Positions 4,375-59,590 of a DNA stretch of 64,000 nucleotides are shown in pieces. The position numbers were made by a program, and so were the translations under genes. Each line of letters starts with the position of its first letter. Positions within the stretch are counted from its first letter, which is position 1. The DNA comes from Xanthostigma xanthostigma (Eukaryota > Arthropoda > Insecta > Raphidioptera > Raphidiidae): contig OY754472.1 of NCBI GenBank assembly GCA_963575645.1, positions 1,240,001 to 1,304,000 of the forward strand. Reading direction: 5' to 3'. The notes under the pieces are model-generated. The model ran no database searches. It worked only from the letters and a program-made list of their open reading frames with translations, and had not been told where the DNA came from.

Positions 4375-4860
4375 CTAGCGGTTCCGTCCGGTTTCACCCG
4401 AGTGCAAAAGAACGAATGGGGAAGGGAGGGACACGAGTACGCACATTCATCTTAGTTTACCGAGATGAATGCTGTGTCCAAATTTCATGATGATCGGAGT
4501 TACCGTTCAAAAGTTTTTGTCGATAAAAAGCAGTATTTATACTTTTTTTTTAATTTCTTTTAAATCAATAATTACTGTAATTAATAAAATATAATGAATA
4601 TTTAATTGAAAACACTAGAAAAATTATTTTTATATAGATACCTATAGTTGTAACAGTTTTCAAATGAGCTACCAATTAGATTTATTTAATTTTAATTAGT
4701 CGTACGTAAAATTAAAATAAATTTAAAATATGTAAGCCTTAGAAAAAAGCAGTGTGGAAAATAAAAAAATAAAAATATATTCGCCCAACGTGGGGCTCGA
4801 ACCCACGACCCTGATATTAGCAGTCGCATGCTCTAGCAACTGACCTAGCCGGGCTTGTGA
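4375..4860 (-). mobile_element. Helitron family 2, 5'-truncated copy
   Basis: On the minus strand the element ends in CTAG at 4375, followed by T, with the GGTGAAACCGGACGGAACCG-type 3' segment shared with 32659-33201 and 43919-44645. It carries the tRNA-Lys-like module of this family and is lost beyond it, ending near a poly-C run at 4864. Non-coding. Confidence 0.7.
4783..4854 (-). tRNA. tRNA-Lys-like module inside a Helitron (probably not functional)
   Basis: Read on the minus strand, the 72 bases have a paired acceptor stem (GCCCGGC with GTTGGGC, using two G-U pairs), a box-A-like TAGGTCAGTTGCTAGAGC and a box-B GGTTCGAGCCC with a complete T-arm (GTGGG/CCCAC). The body is closest to animal tRNA-Lys. 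The anticodon loop reads CTGCTAA (formal anticodon GCT) and its stem has two mismatches, so decoding function is unlikely. The same module recurs at 44202-44272 and as a half at 32935-32965, always at the same place in the same Helitron. Confidence 0.65.
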
Positions 4861-17489: not shown

Positions 17490-17695
17490 GGAGGTTGAGC
17501 CGTTTTACAAAGATAATGAAAAAAATCTGAAATAAAGTTTTTTTTAATAGATTTTTTAATGACAAAATTTTCTGTAAAAAATCCAAAATCATTAGGAGAT
17601 TTATAAAGTTAAAAATTAAAAAAAAATTTTACATGTCTTATGGAAAATATGTCAACCTAGCATGCAAACGGTGCATTTTAATTTTTTGCAAATAA

Positions 17696-17745
17696 TAATA
17701 ATAATAATAATAATAATTTTATTTATTGCCGAAGCAATAGGTCAC
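17696..17745 (-). other. LINE 3' end: UUCG hairpin and (ATT)n tail
   Basis: On the minus strand TATTGC-TTCG-GCAATA (17739-17724) forms a 6-bp stem closed by C(UUCG)G, a very stable tetraloop. AATAAATAAAAT and about nine ATT units follow. CR1/L2-type LINEs often carry a 3' stem-loop recognised by their own reverse transcriptase; that role here is inference. AATAAA may also serve as a polyadenylation signal. Confidence 0.7.
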
Positions 17746-17877
17746 AGATTCAATCCTAGGATTGGTCTTCCATCTGTCCTTCGTACAAATTTCGATAAAC
17801 AAAAATTAATATAAAATGTAGGCATTAAAATACTATAAAAATTAAAAGTCCATAAAAATATAAAAATTGAAAGATTC

Positions 17878-20775
17878 CTAGATTGGTCGATGAGTTAGTT
17901 GTTTGTCTAAAAGATATTTTTGGATTTTAGTTGACACATTACTATTATATTCATAGCAGGGAACTATGTCATGAAGGTCGTTTAATAATTTAGGGGCTAA
18001 ATATGAAAATGATTTTTTAAAGTTTGAGGTAGAATGTGATGGTATTTCAAAAGTGATAGACCTAATCTGATAAGGATTTAAACGCTTTATTAGCCTACTG
18101 GTTAGGTATAAGGGTTCGTTATTTTTTTGCAAACGGAATAGAAATAAATAAAAATGAAGAAGTCTACGGTATGCCATGTTTAAAATACAATGCCGCGTGA
18201 GAAAAGGTGTTATATTTTCTCTATAGGGAATATCAAAAACAAATCTTAAACACGCATTTTGAAGTTTTTGAGCTTTGTGACGGGTTTGGAAGTCTAACGA
18301 GCTACCATAAACAACGTCACCGTATTCAATTATTGGTAATACTAAAACATTGACCAATCTAAGTTTCATTTGCACTGACAGATAATTTTTAAATGAAAAC
18401 AACTTTTTAAGTTTGAAATAAGCAGATCTAAATTTGATAGAAATATGCTCTGTAAATTTCATATTCTGGTCAAAAGTTACACCAAGATTTTTAGCTGTTT
18501 TTACAACGGGAATTACCTCGCCATTTATATTTATGTTTAGAAAGCGATTGTCCATTGATCGAATAAGAAAGTTACTTCCGATGTAAGTAATAGATGATTT
18601 GTTAGAATTTAAAATTAAACCATGATTTTTTGAGTAGCGATGTATTGATCGGAGGTCACTGTTAATAAGTTCTGTAGCATTCTGCTTCTCAGATAACTGG
18701 AAGGAATAATAGACTTGCGTGTCATCAGCATATTGGTGTAACTTAAGATATTTCAAACATTTATAAAAATCAAATATATATACAATGAAAAGCAGTGGAC
18801 CAATTATTGAGCCCTGGGGTACACCTTTAATTATTTGTTGTTGAGTTGAGACGTTATCATTGTCAAGAAAGACTAATTGAGATCTACCTGACAAATATGA
18901 ATCAAACCACTTAATGGCTGGAAAGGAAAGACCCAGAAAATGTAACTTAGCTAGAAGTAGCTCATGGTCAAGAGTGTCAAACGCTTTGCTATAGTCAAGT
19001 AATATCAAGGCGGTACACAGAGAATCGTCCATTGCTTTTCTTATATCGTCACTTAAAAGTGTAAGAGCAGTTACAGTACTGTGGTTGCTCCGAAATCCAG
19101 ACTGACATTGAGGTAATAAACTGTATGTAATTAAATATTCAAATAATTGTTTATGGATAATTTTTTCAATGATTTTAGAGATACTACATAATATGCTTAT
19201 CGGTCTTAAGTCTTTAAAATCTTTAGGATTATTGTTTTTAGCTATTGGTTTGACAATAGCTTTTTTCCAAAGATTAGGAAAAGTAGATTCGATTATTGAT
19301 GAGTTGATTAAGTTAGTAACAACATCTAAACAGAATGGAAGACACATTTTCAAGATTTTAATCGAAATTCCATCACATCCAACTGCATTTGTAGATATTT
19401 TTGCTATCGTTTTCAAAATTTCCTCTTGAGAAATTGTATTGATTACAAATGATTCTTTGCAATTTGGATGTTTGTTATTCAAAAAATAATTAAGTGTCTC
19501 ACGATCTATGTCATTGTTATTAGTGGAAGCTGTCAAAAAATATTTATTTATTTCATCAGCTTTACGTAAATCTGCAGGAATGTCAGTACTATTACTATTA
19601 GATTTTGTGATATTTAAACATTTCAGATTATTCCACAATGATTTCGATTGTTTATTATTATTGACTGTAAAATTAAGGAATGCTTTTTTCTCTCTATCGA
19701 TGGCCTTTTTCGTATAATTTTTTAGTTCAAGATAAAAATCTTTCGCGGCTTTAGTTCTAACTTTTAAATATTTTTCTCTAGCAGCATCACGTTTCCTCAT
19801 CATAATTTTTATAACGTGAGTTATCCAAGGTTTAGATTTTGGTTTAACATTATATGTCTTATATTTGTAAGGTGCATGCTTATCAAGAACTTCATGAATT
19901 AGACAATTAAATTGAGTAATCTTATCATCTATGTTTGCAAAATCTAATGCTGAGAGCCAATCTACATTTCTCAAATCATTGATAAAATCATCATCAATAA
20001 AATATCTAAAATCTCTGTACAGAATGCTTTTTTTAACAAATTTTGTTTGATTATGCACAATACTGCAGAGAACAAGCCGATGATCTGTTACGGCCTCCGG
20101 CATATCAACACAACAGGGATGGACTACAGTTGAAATGTCATTTGTTATAATTAAGTCGAGTAGTGACCCACCATCACTATTTTTATTATAACGAGTAATT
20201 TCTGAAATAATTTGTGTTAGATCCAACGACAATAAAATATTAGTGAGATATTTAGATGCAGGTGTGGTAGCATTCAGATCAATATTTAAATCACCTAGGC
20301 ATATAAGTTTATCACATGTAGGTAGTATTTCTAAGAGCGTGTCCTCAAAAATATTAAGAGAATCGATATATGCGAAATTCGGAGGTCTATACAAGGTACC
20401 AATGGCAAATTTTTGATTGTTCACTTTAATGTTTATCCATAACTGTTCGAGCGCTTCACCACTATTATTTTGAATTGGCACAACAGAATACGAAATACAG
20501 TCTTTAATATAAACAGCCACACCACCACCGCGCTTTCTAACGCGATCACAATTTATAAGTGTGTAGCCTGGGATACTGAGAGACTGTAAATCACTTTCTG
20601 TAGTTAACCACGTTTCACTTAATGTTAATAAATCAAAATTATGCATACTGAAATAAACAAGAAATTCATCAAAGTTTGATTTCAACGACCTTACGTTTAA
20701 ATGTCCAATCTTTAATAAACCACGCTGAGATTTTTTTGAATCTTTCTTTTTCAGACAGAAGGATTGTCTAAAAAA
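17878..20775 (-). CDS. LINE ORF2: apurinic-like endonuclease and reverse transcriptase
   Basis: Open from 20775 (just after an in-frame TAA) to the stop at 17878, 965 codons. The first in-frame Met lies inside the endonuclease, so the true N-terminus (LLKIGHLNVRSLK...) must come from frameshifting out of ORF1 or from non-AUG initiation. Numbered from the Leu codon at 20685, endonuclease motifs are SETWL (23-27), GTLYRPP (96-102), GDLN (131-134), LLDLIITND (175-183) and TDH (200-202). Reverse transcriptase motifs are LRPISIL (493-499), QSGFRSNHST (528-537), DYSKAFD (564-570), GVPQGS (621-626) and YADD (652-655), with all catalytic aspartates present. YIFDF replaces the usual YINDL. No RNase H and no zinc-knuckle tail are visible. 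It nicks target DNA and copies element RNA by target-primed reverse transcription. Confidence 0.93.
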   Translation of the reverse strand, partial: FFRQSFCLKKKDSKKSQRGLLKIGHLNVRSLKSNFDEFLVYFSMHNFDLLTLSETWLTTESDLQSLSIPGYTLINCDRVRKRGGGVAVYIKDCISYSVVPIQNNSGEALEQLWINIKVNNQKFAIGTLYRPPNFAYIDSLNIFEDTLLEILPTCDKLICLGDLNIDLNATTPASKYLTNILLSLDLTQIISEITRYNKNSDGGSLLDLIITNDISTVVHPCCVDMPEAVTDHRLVLCSIVHNQTKFVKKSILYRDFRYFIDDDFINDLRNVDWLSALDFANIDDKITQFNCLIHEVLDKHAPYKYKTYNVKPKSKPWITHVIKIMMRKRDAAREKYLKVRTKAAKDFYLELKNYTKKAIDREKKAFLNFTVNNNKQSKSLWNNLKCLNITKSNSNSTDIPADLRKADEINKYFLTASTNNNDIDRETLNYFLNNKHPNCKESFVINTISQEEILKTIAKISTNAVGCDGISIKILKMCLPFCLDVVTNLINSSIIESTFPNLWKKAIVKPIAKNNNPKDFKDLRPISILCSISKIIEKIIHKQLFEYLITYSLLPQCQSGFRSNHSTVTALTLLSDDIRKAMDDSLCTALILLDYSKAFDTLDHELLLAKLHFLGLSFPAIKWFDSYLSGRSQLVFLDNDNVSTQQQIIKGVPQGSIIGPLLFIVYIFDFYKCLKYLKLHQYADDTQVYYSFQLSEKQNATELINSDLRSIHRYSKNHGLILNSNKSSITYIGSNFLIRSMDNRFLNININGEVIPVVKTAKNLGVTFDQNMKFTEHISIKFRSAYFKLKKLFSFKNYLSVQMKLRLVNVLVLPIIEYGDVVYGSSLDFQTRHKAQKLQNACLRFVFDIPYRENITPFLTRHCILNMAYRRLLHFYLFLFRLQKNNEPLYLTSRLIKRLNPYQIRSITFEIPSHSTSNFKKSFSYLAPKLLNDLHDIVPCYEYNSNVSTKIQKYLLDKQLTHRPI

Positions 20776-21446
20776 TTAACCTGTTTATTTTTTGGAAACC
20801 AAAACCTTTTAATGATTACATTCTCAGGCCAAAAATCGGGGTCCATTAACTTATCTTTAAATTCCATGGGAGCACCAATAAGAAATGAATTCGTGTATCC
20901 TTTGGTTTCCAGCTGACGACATGTATAATTAGAGCCATCTTGATTAAGATGTCGTAAAACAATTTCACTAGTTACTGACTTATGCACTTTACCTAAATAG
21001 AGCCATGCAGTTCTATCACTACCTTTAAAATCAGTATTAATTTTATTGTTCCTACCTACCGTGAGTTGTTTCTGATTTATGGAAATACGATTGGTATTAC
21101 TATTAGAGTCCAAACCTGACGTACCTGATGACGACATTTTTGCTTTTGTTTGCGATCTCAATGTTGGACCTTCGCTTAAAACTTTTGAAAAGGTTTTATG
21201 AGAATTATTTTCACTCTGAGTTAAAACTGATTTTTTTAAATTAGATAATTCAGATTGTAAATCTTTAATTATTTGTAATGGTTCAGCTAAGAATTTAGAA
21301 ACACAGTCTGTAACAATTTTTGTAAAAATTTCCTTAAAATCACTAGAACTTATGAAAGCACTAATTGCCTGATTTAGGGTATCAGAGAACCCCTCAATGT
21401 CGAGATTAGTCTCATTTTTATTCTTTGAGCCTCCAGGAGGCTTCAT
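20751..21446 (-). CDS. LINE ORF1 protein (RNA-binding/chaperone-type)
   Basis: 231 residues starting at an ATG ~94 bases from the element's 5' end. Residues ~45-75 form a short heptad-like helix (FLAEPLQIIKDLQSELSNL) that could trimerise, as in other LINE ORF1 proteins. Residues 80-140 are polar and Ser/Asn/Lys-rich. Residues 146-217 form a compact C-terminal domain beginning TAWLYLGKVHKSVTSEIVL and ending FWPENVIIKRFWFP, the pattern of the RRM-like C-terminal domain in ORF1 of many invertebrate CR1-like elements. I see no CCHC zinc knuckles. The expected role is binding element RNA into the ribonucleoprotein. The last codons overlap the ORF2 frame by 25 bases, with a slippery heptamer at codons 225-226. 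Confidence 0.8.
   Translation of the reverse strand: MKPPGGSKNKNETNLDIEGFSDTLNQAISAFISSSDFKEIFTKIVTDCVSKFLAEPLQIIKDLQSELSNLKKSVLTQSENNSHKTFSKVLSEGPTLRSQTKAKMSSSGTSGLDSNSNTNRISINQKQLTVGRNNKINTDFKGSDRTAWLYLGKVHKSVTSEIVLRHLNQDGSNYTCRQLETKGYTNSFLIGAPMEFKDKLMDPDFWPENVIIKRFWFPKNKQVNFLDNPSV
20769..20775 (-). promoter_or_regulatory. -1 ribosomal frameshift slippery heptamer U UUU UUA
   Basis: In the ORF1 frame the mRNA reads AAU UUU UUA GAC, so the heptamer U UUU UUA has canonical X XXY YYZ phasing. Slipping back one base gives UUU UUU AGA and enters the ORF2 frame, which opens exactly here because a TAA lies directly upstream in that frame. ORF1 terminates 15 bases downstream of the heptamer. Nearby, AGACA and TGTCT (20769-20765 and 20757-20753) could pair, but too close to the heptamer to be a typical stimulator. 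Confidence 0.75.
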
Positions 21447-21506
21447 AATGTCGAAAAATTAGAAATTTTAATACACACAAAGTAAAAAATTGCACCAACG
21501 TAAAAA

Positions 21507-21540
21507 CACGTCTAATCATTAGCACGATCAAACTCATTAT
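21507..21540 (-). promoter_or_regulatory. LINE 5' end with downstream promoter element
   Basis: Counting from the first LINE base after the target duplication (21540, plus or minus one), AGACGTG occupies +28 to +34. This fits the downstream promoter element (RGWYVT at about +28 to +33) known from internal, TATA-less promoters of Drosophila jockey and related LINEs. No TATA box lies at the expected upstream position. Confidence 0.6.
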
Positions 21541-22050
21541 AAATAACCAAATAATGTCAACAGTTCCGAAAACTAACTATGTAAAGCATCGATGTCTTAC
21601 GCATATTTTAATATTTTTTCCAATTTAATTAGGAGACTTTTAATCAATAAAAAAAAATTAAACCTTAGCACTTTTCGATTATAGACTTTTATTCTTGACA
21701 AATTTAACAATTTTAACTGAATTTTCAACTTTTTAATGATTTAATTTTAATTTTTATTACTTCTAATTTCTTTTTTTAATTATTTACTGCAAAAAATATG
21801 TAAAATACAGATATTTACATAAATTTATTTTTTCTAACCTAACTTTGTACAAAAAATTCAAAAGTTACCTATTCCATTAAGTAAATTACTGAAATAATTA
21901 ATATTAAAAAAAATATTTATTTATGCCTTTATGACAATAATTTATTGGTATCATCGACTTATAACCGTTCGTAAAAATTTATTATGGAAAAGTTCCCATT
22001 TAGAGTTCGACTTACTTTTGATTGGGACTGTAACGCATCAACCTCCTTAA

Positions 22051-22701: not shown

Positions 22702-23797
22702 AGGAAACTTTTTGAAGTAAAACTTCTTTAGGCAGGCTTGACTTGGGGAGTATGCTGGTAAATGCCTTACGAAATCGTTTACGGAAGTGCATCATCGCGA
22801 TGCCTGATGAAATCGTTTACGGAAGTGCATCATCGCGATGTCTGATGAAATCGTTTACGGAAGTGCATCATCGCGATGCCTGACGAAATCGTTTACGGAA
22901 GTGCATCATCGCGATGCCTGATGAAATCGTTTACGGAAGTGCATCATCGCGATGCCTGACGAAATCGTTTACGGAAGTGCATCATCGCGATGCCTGACGA
23001 AATCGTTTACGGAAGTGCATCATCGCGATGTCTGACGAAATCGTTTACGGAAGTGCATCATCGCGATGCCTGATGAAATCGTTTACGGAAGTGCATCATC
23101 GCGATGCCTGACGAAATCGTTTACGGAAGTGCATCATCGCGATGCCTGATGAAATCGTTTACGGAAGTGCATCATCGCGATGCCTGATGAAATCGTTTAC
23201 GGAAGTGCATCATCGCGATGCCTGACGAAATCGTTTACGGAAGTGCATCATCGCGACGGTGCGTGATCGTTCGAGGCGAACGGAGTTGATAGAGAGATAT
23301 AAGCTAGTGAGTGCGACAAAGACGGAGCATTAAGTTGAGAGGGAGATATAAGTTAGTGAGTGCGACAAAGACGGAGCATTAATACAACTATTTGACGTTT
23401 AAAATGAATAGATACAACTGTTTTTTTGTATCAAAAATACATTTCATCGAATTTAGCTGCATTTTGTAAAGGGAAATTATGTAGGTTAGTTAATAAATCC
23501 TTTTAAATGTATTATAAATTATGCTAATAAATATATATACATATTTTGCCTATTAATTAATCAACAATTATATTTTAAACATTTCGTCTTTGTAGATATG
23601 TGCTACAGAGTGAGGTTATGTTGTGTTAGATAAACTTTGAGATGAACCGACTGCATATTATTGTTCGTTTATGAATTTAACATGAGCAAATTTGAGGTAT
23701 TTTCCCATTATTCTCAATAAATATTATATTTACAATAATTATGGCAGGAAGAAGTTTTACTTCAGTCGTGTGGTCTAAAGCACACTCGCTTTTTTTT
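22702..23797 (+). mobile_element. Palindromic-end transposon with expanded minisatellite
   Basis: Starts TTTTTGAAGTAAAACTTC followed by TTTAGGCAGGCTTGACTTGG and ends GGAAGAAGTTTTACTTC, then AGTCGTGTGGTCTAAAGCAC. Related copies are 58789-59590 and, partial and inverted, 1850-2291. This copy alone has the 13-unit array at 22763-23256. Everything after the array (GAGAGGGAGATATAAGYTAG onward) is collinear with the other copies. Non-coding. Confidence 0.75.
22763..23256 (+). repeat. Minisatellite: 13 tandem units of 38 bp
   Basis: The unit is TGCCTGAYGAAATCGTTTAC plus GGAAGTGCATCATCGCGA, phase-perfect at 38 bp, with CATCGCGATG (a 10-bp palindrome) spanning unit junctions. Units differ mainly at two C/T positions (CCTGAT, CCTGAC, TCTGAT, TCTGAC types interspersed). 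There are no spacers, so it is not a CRISPR. Sister elements contain a single unit. Confidence 0.97.
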
Positions 23798-53397: not shown

Positions 53398-54462
53398 AAG
53401 TGTGTGTGTTTGTGTCAGCTCCGACGCACGACTAGAGTTTACTCCTTAGATACGCTGTATAATGTAATTCCATCTCATTCTTTCGCACGTTAAATCCTAC
53501 AGATATATATGTTTGTCTCTTTTGTATTCCATCTCATTCTGTCGCACGTTAAATCCTACAGATATATATGTTTGTCTCTTTTGTATTTCATCTCATTCTT
53601 TCGCACATTAAATCCTACAGATATAATATATGTTTGTCTCTTTTGAAGCGGACGAGCGTAACGCCACACTTGAAGCGGTGGAGCTAACGCTTCACCAATT
53701 GATTTTTCTACTCATAAAATTTCCGTACCGGGCCTTATAACTCAAAATCGTTTCTTTAGGAGGTTGATGCGTTACATTCCCAATCAAAAGTAAGTCAAAT
53801 TCTAAATGAGAACTTTTCCATAATAAATTTTTACAAAAGGTTATAAGTCGATGATACTAATAAATTATTGTCATAAAGGCATAAATAAATAATTTTTTTA
53901 ATAATAATGACATAATTTTGAATTTTTTGTACAAAGATAGATTAGAAAAAATAAATTTATGTAAATATCTGTATTTTACATATTTTTTTGCAGTAAATAA
54001 TTAAAAAAAGAAATTAGAAGTAATGAAAATTAAAATTAAATCATTAAAAAGGTGAAAACTCAGCTAAAATTGTTAAATTTGTCAAGAATGAAAGTCCATA
54101 ATCTTAAAGTGCTTAGGTTTAATAATTTGTTTTAATGATTAAAAGTCTCCTAATTAAATTGGAAAAAATATTAAAATATGCGTAAGACATCGATGCTTTA
54201 CATAGTTAGTTTTTGGAACTGCTGACATTATTTGGTTATTTACAAAAAATTAATATGTACCGTTTGCGTGCTAGGTTGACATATTTTCCATAAGACTACA
54301 TGTAAAAGTTTTTTTTAATTTTTAACTTTATAAATCTCCTAATGATTTTGGATTTTTTACAGAAAATTTTGTCATAAAAAATCTATTAAAAAAACTTTAT
54401 TTCAGATTTTTTTCATTATCTTCGTAAAACGGCTCAACCTCCTTAAGGAGTAAACTCCAATA
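53398..54462 (+). mobile_element. Repeat element with three 59-bp units, interrupted by a TTAA element
   Basis: Same element as 15555-15872 (CAGCTCCGACGCACGACTAG, GAGTTTACTCCTTAGATACG, three ATTCCATCTCATTCT...GTTTGTCTCTTTTG units, GGCCTTATAACTCAAAATCG). It splits at 53758 and resumes at 54443 as TTAAGGAGTAAACTCC. The uninterrupted copy reads TTTCTTAAGGAGTAACTCC there. Confidence 0.75.
53759..54442. mobile_element. TTAA-flanked DNA element without LINE (684 bp)
   Basis: GGAGGTTGATGCGTT...AACGGCTCAACCTCC, with TTAA on the right (54443-54446) and its one-base variant TTTA on the left (53755-53758). Collinear in reverse complement with 17490-22046 minus the LINE. Provides the empty site for the LINE at about 54245-54255. 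Confidence 0.8.
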
Positions 54463-58788: not shown

Positions 58789-59590
58789 TTGAAGGAAAAC
58801 TTCTTTAGGCACGCTTCACTTGGGGAGTAAGCTGGTAAATGCATGACGAAATCGTTTACGGAAGTGCATCATCGGAGTTGAGAGGGAGATATAAGTTAGT
58901 GAGTGCGACAAAGACCTAGCGTTAATACAACTATTTGACGTTTAAAATGAAAATAACTGTTTTTTTTGTATCAAAAATACATTTCATCGAATTTTACTGT
59001 ATTTTGTAATGGGAAATAAAGTAGGTTAGTTAATAAATCCTTTTAAATGTATTATAAATAATGCTAATAAATAAATAAAATTATCGACCAATTTTTCAGA
59101 CAATATATTAACAAAAAATATCAATAATACCTACAGTAACGTTTCGATCCGGATTTGGATCTTCTTCAGAACGGATCTAAAAATATAAAAAAATAATTAA
59201 TAATTAGTTTCTATTTATTTTGTAATTCGTGAAAGATTTTTTTAATATAATAGAAACTAATTATTAATTATTTTTTTATATTTTTAGATCCGTTCTGAAG
59301 AAGATCCAAATCCGTATCGAAACGTTAATGTATTATTGATATTTTTTGTTAATATATTGTCTGAAAAATTGGTCGATAATTTTATTTATTGAAGAGTTCT
59401 AATCAGACGTTAATCAAAGATTTGAATAATGCTAATAATAATAATGCATATTATTGTTCGTTTAGGAATTTAACATGAGCAAATTTGAGGTATTTACGCA
59501 TTATTCTTAATACCTAAATATATTTAAAATAATTATGGCAGGAAGAAGTTTTACTTCAGTCGTGTGTTCTAAAGCACGCTCGCTTTTTTT
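58789..59590 (+). mobile_element. Palindromic-end transposon, copy 3, with nested Penelope-derived element
   Basis: GAAGGAAAACTTCTTTAGGC to GGAAGAAGTTTTACTTCAG and TCGTGTGTTCTAAAGCACGC. It has a single 38-bp unit (58845-58873) where the 22.7-kb copy has thirteen. Interrupted at 59071-59424. Confidence 0.75.
59071..59424. mobile_element. Penelope-derived element, inverted double copy, 14-bp duplication
   Basis: Flanked by AATAATGCTAATAA (59057-59070, 59425-59438). It consists of two head-to-head copies of the small element (arms about 59075-59220 and 59262-59397), each with its own hammerhead-like core (59168-59138 minus, 59295-59326 plus), followed by the AAGAGTTCTAATCAGACGTT tail also seen at 17109. 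The uninterrupted host sequence is at 23513-23530. Confidence 0.8.

Follow-up and report, generated by a model that had tools for sequence, protein, structure and literature searches.

Probable ribosomal -1 frameshifting into ORF2 of a LINE from Xanthostigma xanthostigma, and a matching +1 motif in most of its relatives

How long interspersed nuclear elements (LINEs) translate their second open reading frame (ORF) is an open question, and the reviews consulted give either reinitiation or an unknown mode of initiation for ORF2 (PMC2881922, PMC5009743, PMC5972666). For retrotransposons without long terminal repeats (non-LTR elements), the literature consulted names frameshifting for the Gag protein of HeT-A, reinitiation in SART1 and L1, and StopGo of the 2A type in elements from trypanosomes and sea urchins. 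Also described are the exchange of ORF1 between CR1 and L2 lineages (PMC4120745) and +1 shifting at UUU_CGN, in influenza A PA-X as well as the plant amalgaviruses (PMC5052127). A start-less ORF2 behind a textbook slip site bears on the open question. Such an arrangement is found in the window analysed here (64,000 nucleotides of X. xanthostigma contig OY754472.1, positions 1,240,001 to 1,304,000), within a full-length, nearly intact LINE that we take to belong to the CR1/Jockey superfamily. Judging from the sequences of this element and its relatives, its ORF2 is very probably made by ribosomal -1 frameshifting. The features of the element, in window coordinates, are the following.

17691 to 21543, minus strand: full-length CR1/Jockey-like LINE with two ORFs, apurinic/apyrimidinic endonuclease (APE), reverse transcriptase (RT) and ATT-repeat tail; bounds from homology with copy L010, endonuclease and RT domains from Pfam
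20751 to 21446, minus strand: ORF1, from the ATG at 21446 (MKPPGGSKNK...) to TGA, 231 amino acids, C-terminus RFWFPKNKQVNFLDNPSV; from translation and same-genome ORF1 homologues
17878 to 20775, minus strand: ORF2, open over 965 codons in the -1 frame relative to ORF1, with no ATG ahead of the endonuclease
20769 to 20775, minus strand: U_UUU_UUA slippery heptamer, ORF1 phase AAT TTT TTA; from the sequence, and kept in 9 of 13 -1-frame families including its own
20751 to 20775, minus strand: ORF1/ORF2 overlap of 25 nt, bounded by the -1-frame TAA and the ORF1 TGA
20080 to 20697, minus strand: AP-type endonuclease domain of ORF2 (Pfam PF03372, residues 27-232, E 3.2e-9)
18475 to 19224, minus strand: reverse transcriptase domain of ORF2 (Pfam PF00078, residues 518-767, E 3e-31)
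17691 to 17717, minus strand: 3' tail of ATT repeats; from the sequence, homology between copies stopping here

The ends were set by the alignment with L010, which is 99.95% identical over 3854 nt and starts and stops at 21543 and 17691. With an N-terminal AP endonuclease and a reverse transcriptase in ORF2, both above the Pfam cut-off, the element is an APE-type LINE. A Pfam search of ORF1 returned zero domains above cut-off, and its one relative in the protein database was P0123 (57% over 61% of the length).

The initial annotation had proposed a -1 slip at this junction, and the anatomy that it described was borne out. No AUG precedes the endonuclease in the ORF2 frame, where the first ATG comes after the endonuclease motif HLNVRSL. 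The frame opens exactly at the heptamer: the -1-frame TAA (20778-20776) abuts it, and 965 codons are open to 17878. The heptamer is phased on ORF1 codons 225-226 (Phe225-Leu226, counting from the ATG at 21446), and the ORF1 stop, TGA (20753-20751), lies 15 bases past the TTA, all on the minus strand. These are the marks of -1 frameshifting: an X_XXY_YYZ heptamer in zero-frame phase within an overlap, and a downstream -1 ORF that is open and has no start codon. U_UUU_UUA is also the site used by HIV (PMC5009743). An ORF2 AUG at or just past the ORF1 stop, as in stop-restart translation, is absent from the window element.

A single phased heptamer is by itself only moderate evidence. The AT-rich ORF1 holds four phased X_XXY_YYZ heptamers, and in 14 related elements (one per family) other Phe-Leu pairs were coded T_TTT_TTA in 5 of 78 cases. 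We took seriously the possibility that nothing is programmed here, an ancestral ORF2 AUG having been lost, the copy being dead or parasitic, and the heptamer having arisen by chance in AT-rich DNA, where the general class of phased heptamer is common. Such a loss would agree with the nearest database relatives of ORF2: judging by their ORF2 sequences, 46 of 49 begin with a start codon called 2-22 residues ahead of the endonuclease motif, GTG or TTG possibly being counted among these starts. Since a lone heptamer is weak evidence, we tested it across the window's own 623-Mb genome.

The alignment of sister copies suggested with the initial annotation was run. All six own-family copies with a readable junction, the window's included, retain the heptamer and its phase as well as the -1-frame TAA and the ORF1 TGA; an AUG in the ORF2 frame ahead of the endonuclease was found in none of the six. 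Copies L010-L013 are 99.7-99.95% identical to the window copy (L011 at 99.7%), and ORF2 is open over 965 codons in each of them. The whole of ORF1 is open in L010 and L011; L012 and L013 are without the ORF1 start, and L014, one of the six junction copies, is otherwise decayed. Near-identical copies with an open ORF2, two of them also with an open ORF1, argue against a dead element, and the window LINE is likely to be young and active.

An ORF1 search of the same genome (28 contigs) gave at least 151 matches, with 150 of 332 candidates scored. We took 120 stretches, which include most of the 151 matches; the remainder comprised the copy in the window itself, the second parts of split matches, near-duplicates and the weakest hits. 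Of these stretches and the window copy, 121 in all, 119 showed both an ORF1 frame and a match to the endonuclease; L026 and L054, which had no such match, were dropped. Clustering of the 119 loci at 75% nucleotide identity gave 62 families, and exclusion of the decayed L036 left 61 usable families, the window element's own among them. The frame of ORF2 relative to ORF1 was that of the endonuclease as located by tblastn, without use of the motif. Motifs were counted within the last 50 ORF1 codons and compared with 500 rounds of codon shuffling. Family representatives were chosen favouring motif-bearing copies; counts over all loci and over the first copy of each family were made without that choice.

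By this measure ORF2 is in the -1 frame in 13 families and in the +1 frame in 48, and the motifs followed the frames. Phased T_TTT_TTA was present in 9 of the 13 -1 families (shuffle mean 0.51, maximum 3) and in 1 of the 48 +1 families (mean 0.99). For phased TTT_CGN the figures were 44 of the 48 +1 families (mean 7.43, maximum 15) and 1 of the 13 -1 families (mean 0.96). When all 119 loci were counted, T_TTT_TTA occurred in 26 of 36 -1 loci and 1 of 81 +1 loci, and TTT_CGN in 75 of 81 +1 loci and 5 of 36 -1 loci, two loci being in frame 0. The first copy per family gave 9 of 14 for T_TTT_TTA in the -1 class and 43 of 47 for TTT_CGN in the +1 class. The co-variation of motif and frame over 61 families, with both classes in one genome, is the more interesting part of the result. 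The -1 slip proposed for the window element is supported, but -1 is the minority mode among its relatives, most of which look +1 at UUU_CGN.

The heptamer is also conserved beyond what the protein needs. In a tenth -1 family, four of the five copies carry T_TTT_TTT and the fifth T_TTT_TTA, and all ten families with a site are phased NNT TTT TT[A/T]. Related families sharing 35-51% of ORF1 retain the heptamer while the flanking codons drift. Across six lineages with a similar ORF1 tail (commonest form FPKNKKINFLE), TTT TTA is invariant; the upstream codons vary synonymously (TTT/TTC, CCA/CCT/CCG/CCC, AAT/AAC, AAA/AAG, ATT/ATA), and the codon preceding TTT TTA is AAT, TCT or ATT, its last base always T. 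Such conservation of both site and phase is what programmed -1 frameshifting calls for. Because it extends across families, the heptamer goes beyond chance, and this we regard as the decisive evidence. TTT accounts for 0.73 of Phe codons, CGN for 0.45 of Arg and TTA for 0.39 of Leu; with these shares the motif pattern is unlikely to come from amino-acid constraint alone. As a control, other Phe-Arg pairs were coded TTT CGN in 10 of 36 cases.

Between the shift site and the endonuclease, the ORF2 frame of the 44 +1 families with TTT_CGN is free of stops over 1364 codons, against 138 and 128 stops in the other two frames. That of the ten -1 families has 1 stop in 224 codons, in the decayed L025, against 18 and 15. 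This makes the frame open in 53 of the 54 families with a site. No more than 15 nt from the ORF1 stop, the ORF2 frame has an ATG in 1 of 10 -1 families (again L025) and in 8 of 44 +1 families, against 15 of 44 +1 families for the frame that is not used. Purifying selection acts on ORF2 from the slip site onward in those pairs that are better diverged, where the ratio of nonsynonymous to synonymous substitution rates (dN/dS) was 0.11 (L030/L049), 0.24 (L037/L040) and 0.22 (L081/L115). The co-variation of motif and frame and the openness of ORF2 from slip site to endonuclease tell against a chance heptamer, which we rejected on the family survey and now hold to be extremely improbable.

Several points weigh against programmed frameshifting as we propose it. 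The families share ancestry and are not independent events, and the same-site comparisons all come from within one genome. Three of the 13 -1 families (L087, L106, L112) have [A/C]TT_TTT_CC[A/G], a non-canonical heptamer. Four of the 48 +1 families are without TTT_CGN: L041 (TTT_AGA), L125 (TTT_CTG), L077 and L079. The last, which is the sole +1 family with T_TTT_TTA, owes its assigned frame to an endonuclease match that begins at residue 71, and it may really belong to the -1 class and have suffered an indel. The dN/dS was near or above 1, mostly on few changes, for ORF2 of L018/L019, L028/L029 and L050/L070 and for ORF1 of L033/L042, L043/L045 and L046/L047. Finally, efficient -1 sites usually, if not universally, carry a stimulator. 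The stem or pseudoknot expected 5-9 nt downstream did not appear: in the ten -1 families we found no stable stem and no excess of structure by a search in which pseudoknots were not modelled. Mean fold z-scores at the ten -1 sites were -0.20, 0.49, 0.33 and 0.07 (40, 60, 100 and 150 nt) and +0.87 in a 70-nt window; two single -1 windows fell below -2, one of 40 nt (L037) and one of 150 nt (L033). The +1 class had a mean of 0.03 over 44 sites, four of them below -2, with upstream controls at -0.38. Given no downstream structure, the -1 site is either weak on its own or served by an unseen stimulator.

The missing stimulatory structure would be expected if the shift occurred in transcription, RNA polymerase II adding a U in the T6 run so that some mRNAs join ORF1 and ORF2 in frame. 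The T-runs also speak for it, being of six (eight families) or seven (two) in the ten -1 families with a site, and 40 of the 44 +1 sites likewise lie on T6-T7. Slippage of the polymerase, however, leaves unexplained why the codon phase is the same in 10 of 10 -1 families and why CGN follows TTT in 44 of 48 +1 families. Four +1 families have T-runs of just 3 or 5, two of them of only three, and T6 is short for polymerase slippage. We consider this explanation improbable. An assembly or sequencing error in the T-run was rejected as well, as six copies and many families agree and two +1 families have runs of only three T.

ORF2 might instead be reached by termination and reinitiation at a non-AUG codon. 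The ORF1 stop of the window element reads C-UGA, with CUG in the ORF2 frame, and resembles AUGA stop-restart sites; in its own family TGT CTG AAA overlaps GTC TGA exactly. Reinitiation is described for SART1 and proposed for L1 (PMC2881922, PMC5972666). A CTG overlapping the ORF1 stop, however, recurs in none of the nine other -1 families with a site, and CTG, GTG or ACG within 15 nt is no more frequent in the ORF2 frame (3 of 10) than in the ORF1 frame (5 of 10). The ORF1 stop lies 15-48 nt from the slip site, at a distance from the endonuclease that is not fixed, and CUG reinitiation leaves the heptamer unexplained. As the CUG is not conserved, we rejected this as the main account and regard it as highly improbable.

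Ribosomal frameshifting is the reading that we prefer, on the strength of the anatomy, the lack of a usable AUG, the heptamer and phase conserved across diverged families, and the ORF2 frame open from the slip site. ORF1 protein would come from ordinary translation. Near the ORF1 terminus a minority of ribosomes would slip back on U_UUU_UUA by a single base and go on in the -1 frame, giving a single fusion of the ORF1 protein (presumed to bind RNA) with the endonuclease and reverse transcriptase, like retroviral Gag-Pol; ORF1 protein would then be in excess over the fusion. In the related families the same logic would apply with a +1 shift at UUU_CGN. The prediction is that the reverse transcriptase is produced fused to the ORF1 protein, in a low and fixed proportion, and that non-LTR elements thus follow a strategy like that of Gag-Pol.

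The carriers of TTT_CGN are L028-L029, L039, L043-L048 and most of L050-L129, with the site at the end of ORF1. In these relatives (44 of 48 families, 75 of 81 loci) UUU_CGN is phased, and ORF2 is in the +1 frame and open onward. Forty of the 44 sites read TTT TTT CGN, within a conserved RFxFFR-type motif; the codon before TTT_CGN is TTA, ATT, TCC or CTT in the other four. The A-site codon is CGG in 19 families, CGT in 13 and CGA in 12. Because the common core is the second Phe codon plus CGN, we read the class as slipping in the P site, UUU to UUC, while CGN occupies the A site. By sequence it would fit the slip of PA-X and the amalgaviruses, whereas a -2 shift or polymerase slippage fits poorly. 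The -2 shift was not favoured: L089 (TTA TTT CGA) and L119 (TCC TTT CGT) are without the T-run that it needs, and it gives CGN no role. Separately, L087, L106/L114 and L112 code KRF[I/L]FP as [A/C]TT TTT CC[A/G] AG[A/G] at the place where +1 families have TTT CGN.

The two ORFs differ in their relationships. The trees comprised only same-genome elements and database proteins without clade names. In the ORF2 tree the window element, L015 and L019 group with database LINEs, and L021 and L023 belong, with the +1 elements, to a clade of their own (100/100). The tree of ORF1 puts the window element, L015, L019, L021, L023, the fragment L026 and P0123 into one clade (100/100). This disagreement implies different histories for the two ORFs, with the slip site following ORF1, and suggests that ORF1 passed between LINE lineages together with its slip site, as one module. 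A reading that would fit is that an AUG-type LINE had its ORF1 exchanged for one bearing a slip site, the AUG then becoming dispensable. More broadly, we think it fairly likely that a large LINE group expresses ORF2 only as an ORF1-ORF2 recoding fusion. ORF1 would carry the signal and be exchanged as a module, and lineages would switch between -1 (U_UUU_UUA) and +1 (UUU_CGN) with no conserved ORF2 AUG, giving about 54 natural families of shift sites (44 +1, 10 -1) apparently without local RNA structure.

Searches also extended beyond this genome. Phages and plasmids gave no relatives at E 1e-10, and of four protein-based scans of viral contigs one found a partial RT locus, L001, and three found nothing. 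Junction patterns had no match in viral contigs (two patterns) or prokaryote genome contigs (one pattern). A protein search with five ORF1s had no matches, and the search with P0001 returned P0123 only, so that the ORF1 comparison draws on one genome and P0123. Scanning genome contigs with the ORF2 alignment gave 35 distant LINE-like loci, 23 of which were read for their junction. In five of the distant loci (L146, L155, L156, L157, L158) ORF1 and ORF2 share a frame, with a single TGA and then CTN between them and no ATG. The CTN is CTA in four and CTC in one, and their ORF2s are 38-56% identical. They come from contigs of metagenome-assembled genomes labelled Candidatus Poribacteria (isolates Plut_88885, 88891, 88864), which are probably eukaryotic contamination. 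Their junction looks like what we take to be UGA_CUN stop-codon readthrough, a further route to an ORF1-ORF2 fusion.

The window LINE sits inside another repeat, its flanks (22000-21540 and 17705-17500) being contiguous in a copy at 53805-54432. Any target-site duplication is at most a few A/T bases, indistinguishable from the ATT tail, and the copies share one end point. The host repeat, with ends like AGGAGGTTGA...TCAACCTCCT, is present twice in the window, once holding the LINE and once (53805-54432) as the empty version; it is perhaps a non-autonomous DNA transposon. Directly upstream of the LINE lies an array of 13 38-bp units (22762-23256), with lone units near 2207 and at 58840-58874. 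One tRNA gene match was found at 4782-4854 on the minus strand (Rfam, 33.8 bits).

Elements of this kind would be scored as dead by gene finders that require an AUG or that take the overlap for a frameshift mutation. Dozens of relatives bear a -1 or +1 motif matching the needed frame. Among the open-access papers listed, we recognised no report of recoding into ORF2 of a CR1/Jockey-type LINE, though one may exist in subscription papers or Repbase notes. SART1 (UAAUG) and L1 share with the window LINE a bicistronic mRNA and an ORF2 that needs unusual translation, but their stop-restart sites have an ORF2 AUG at or after the ORF1 stop and the window LINE has none (PMC2881922, PMC5972666). HeT-A, the Drosophila telomeric element, is likewise a non-LTR element dependent on frameshifting; it has no RT, however, and its shift serves Gag and not access to ORF2 (PMC5009743). 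The CR1/L2/Jockey LINEs with reticulate ORF1 have the same APE and RT in ORF2 and ORF1 types swapped between lineages (PMC4120745). The word frameshift is absent from that paper's main text, whereas here ORF1 bears its own slip site, and the mode of expression seems to travel with it. The +1 relatives provide a large natural set of animal UUU_CGN-type sites for a motif described from viruses (PMC5052127). They share with PA-X and the amalgaviruses the same phased UUU_CGN, in 44 of 48 +1-frame families; the differences are that these are LINEs and that the preceding codon is also TTT in 40 of 44, and the likeness concerns the relatives and not the window element. The window element itself compares most directly with retroviral and coronaviral -1 frameshifting: heptamer, phase, short overlap and downstream polymerase frame are the same, in a LINE that has no LTR, no ORF1 domain found and no downstream stimulatory structure detected (PMC5009743).

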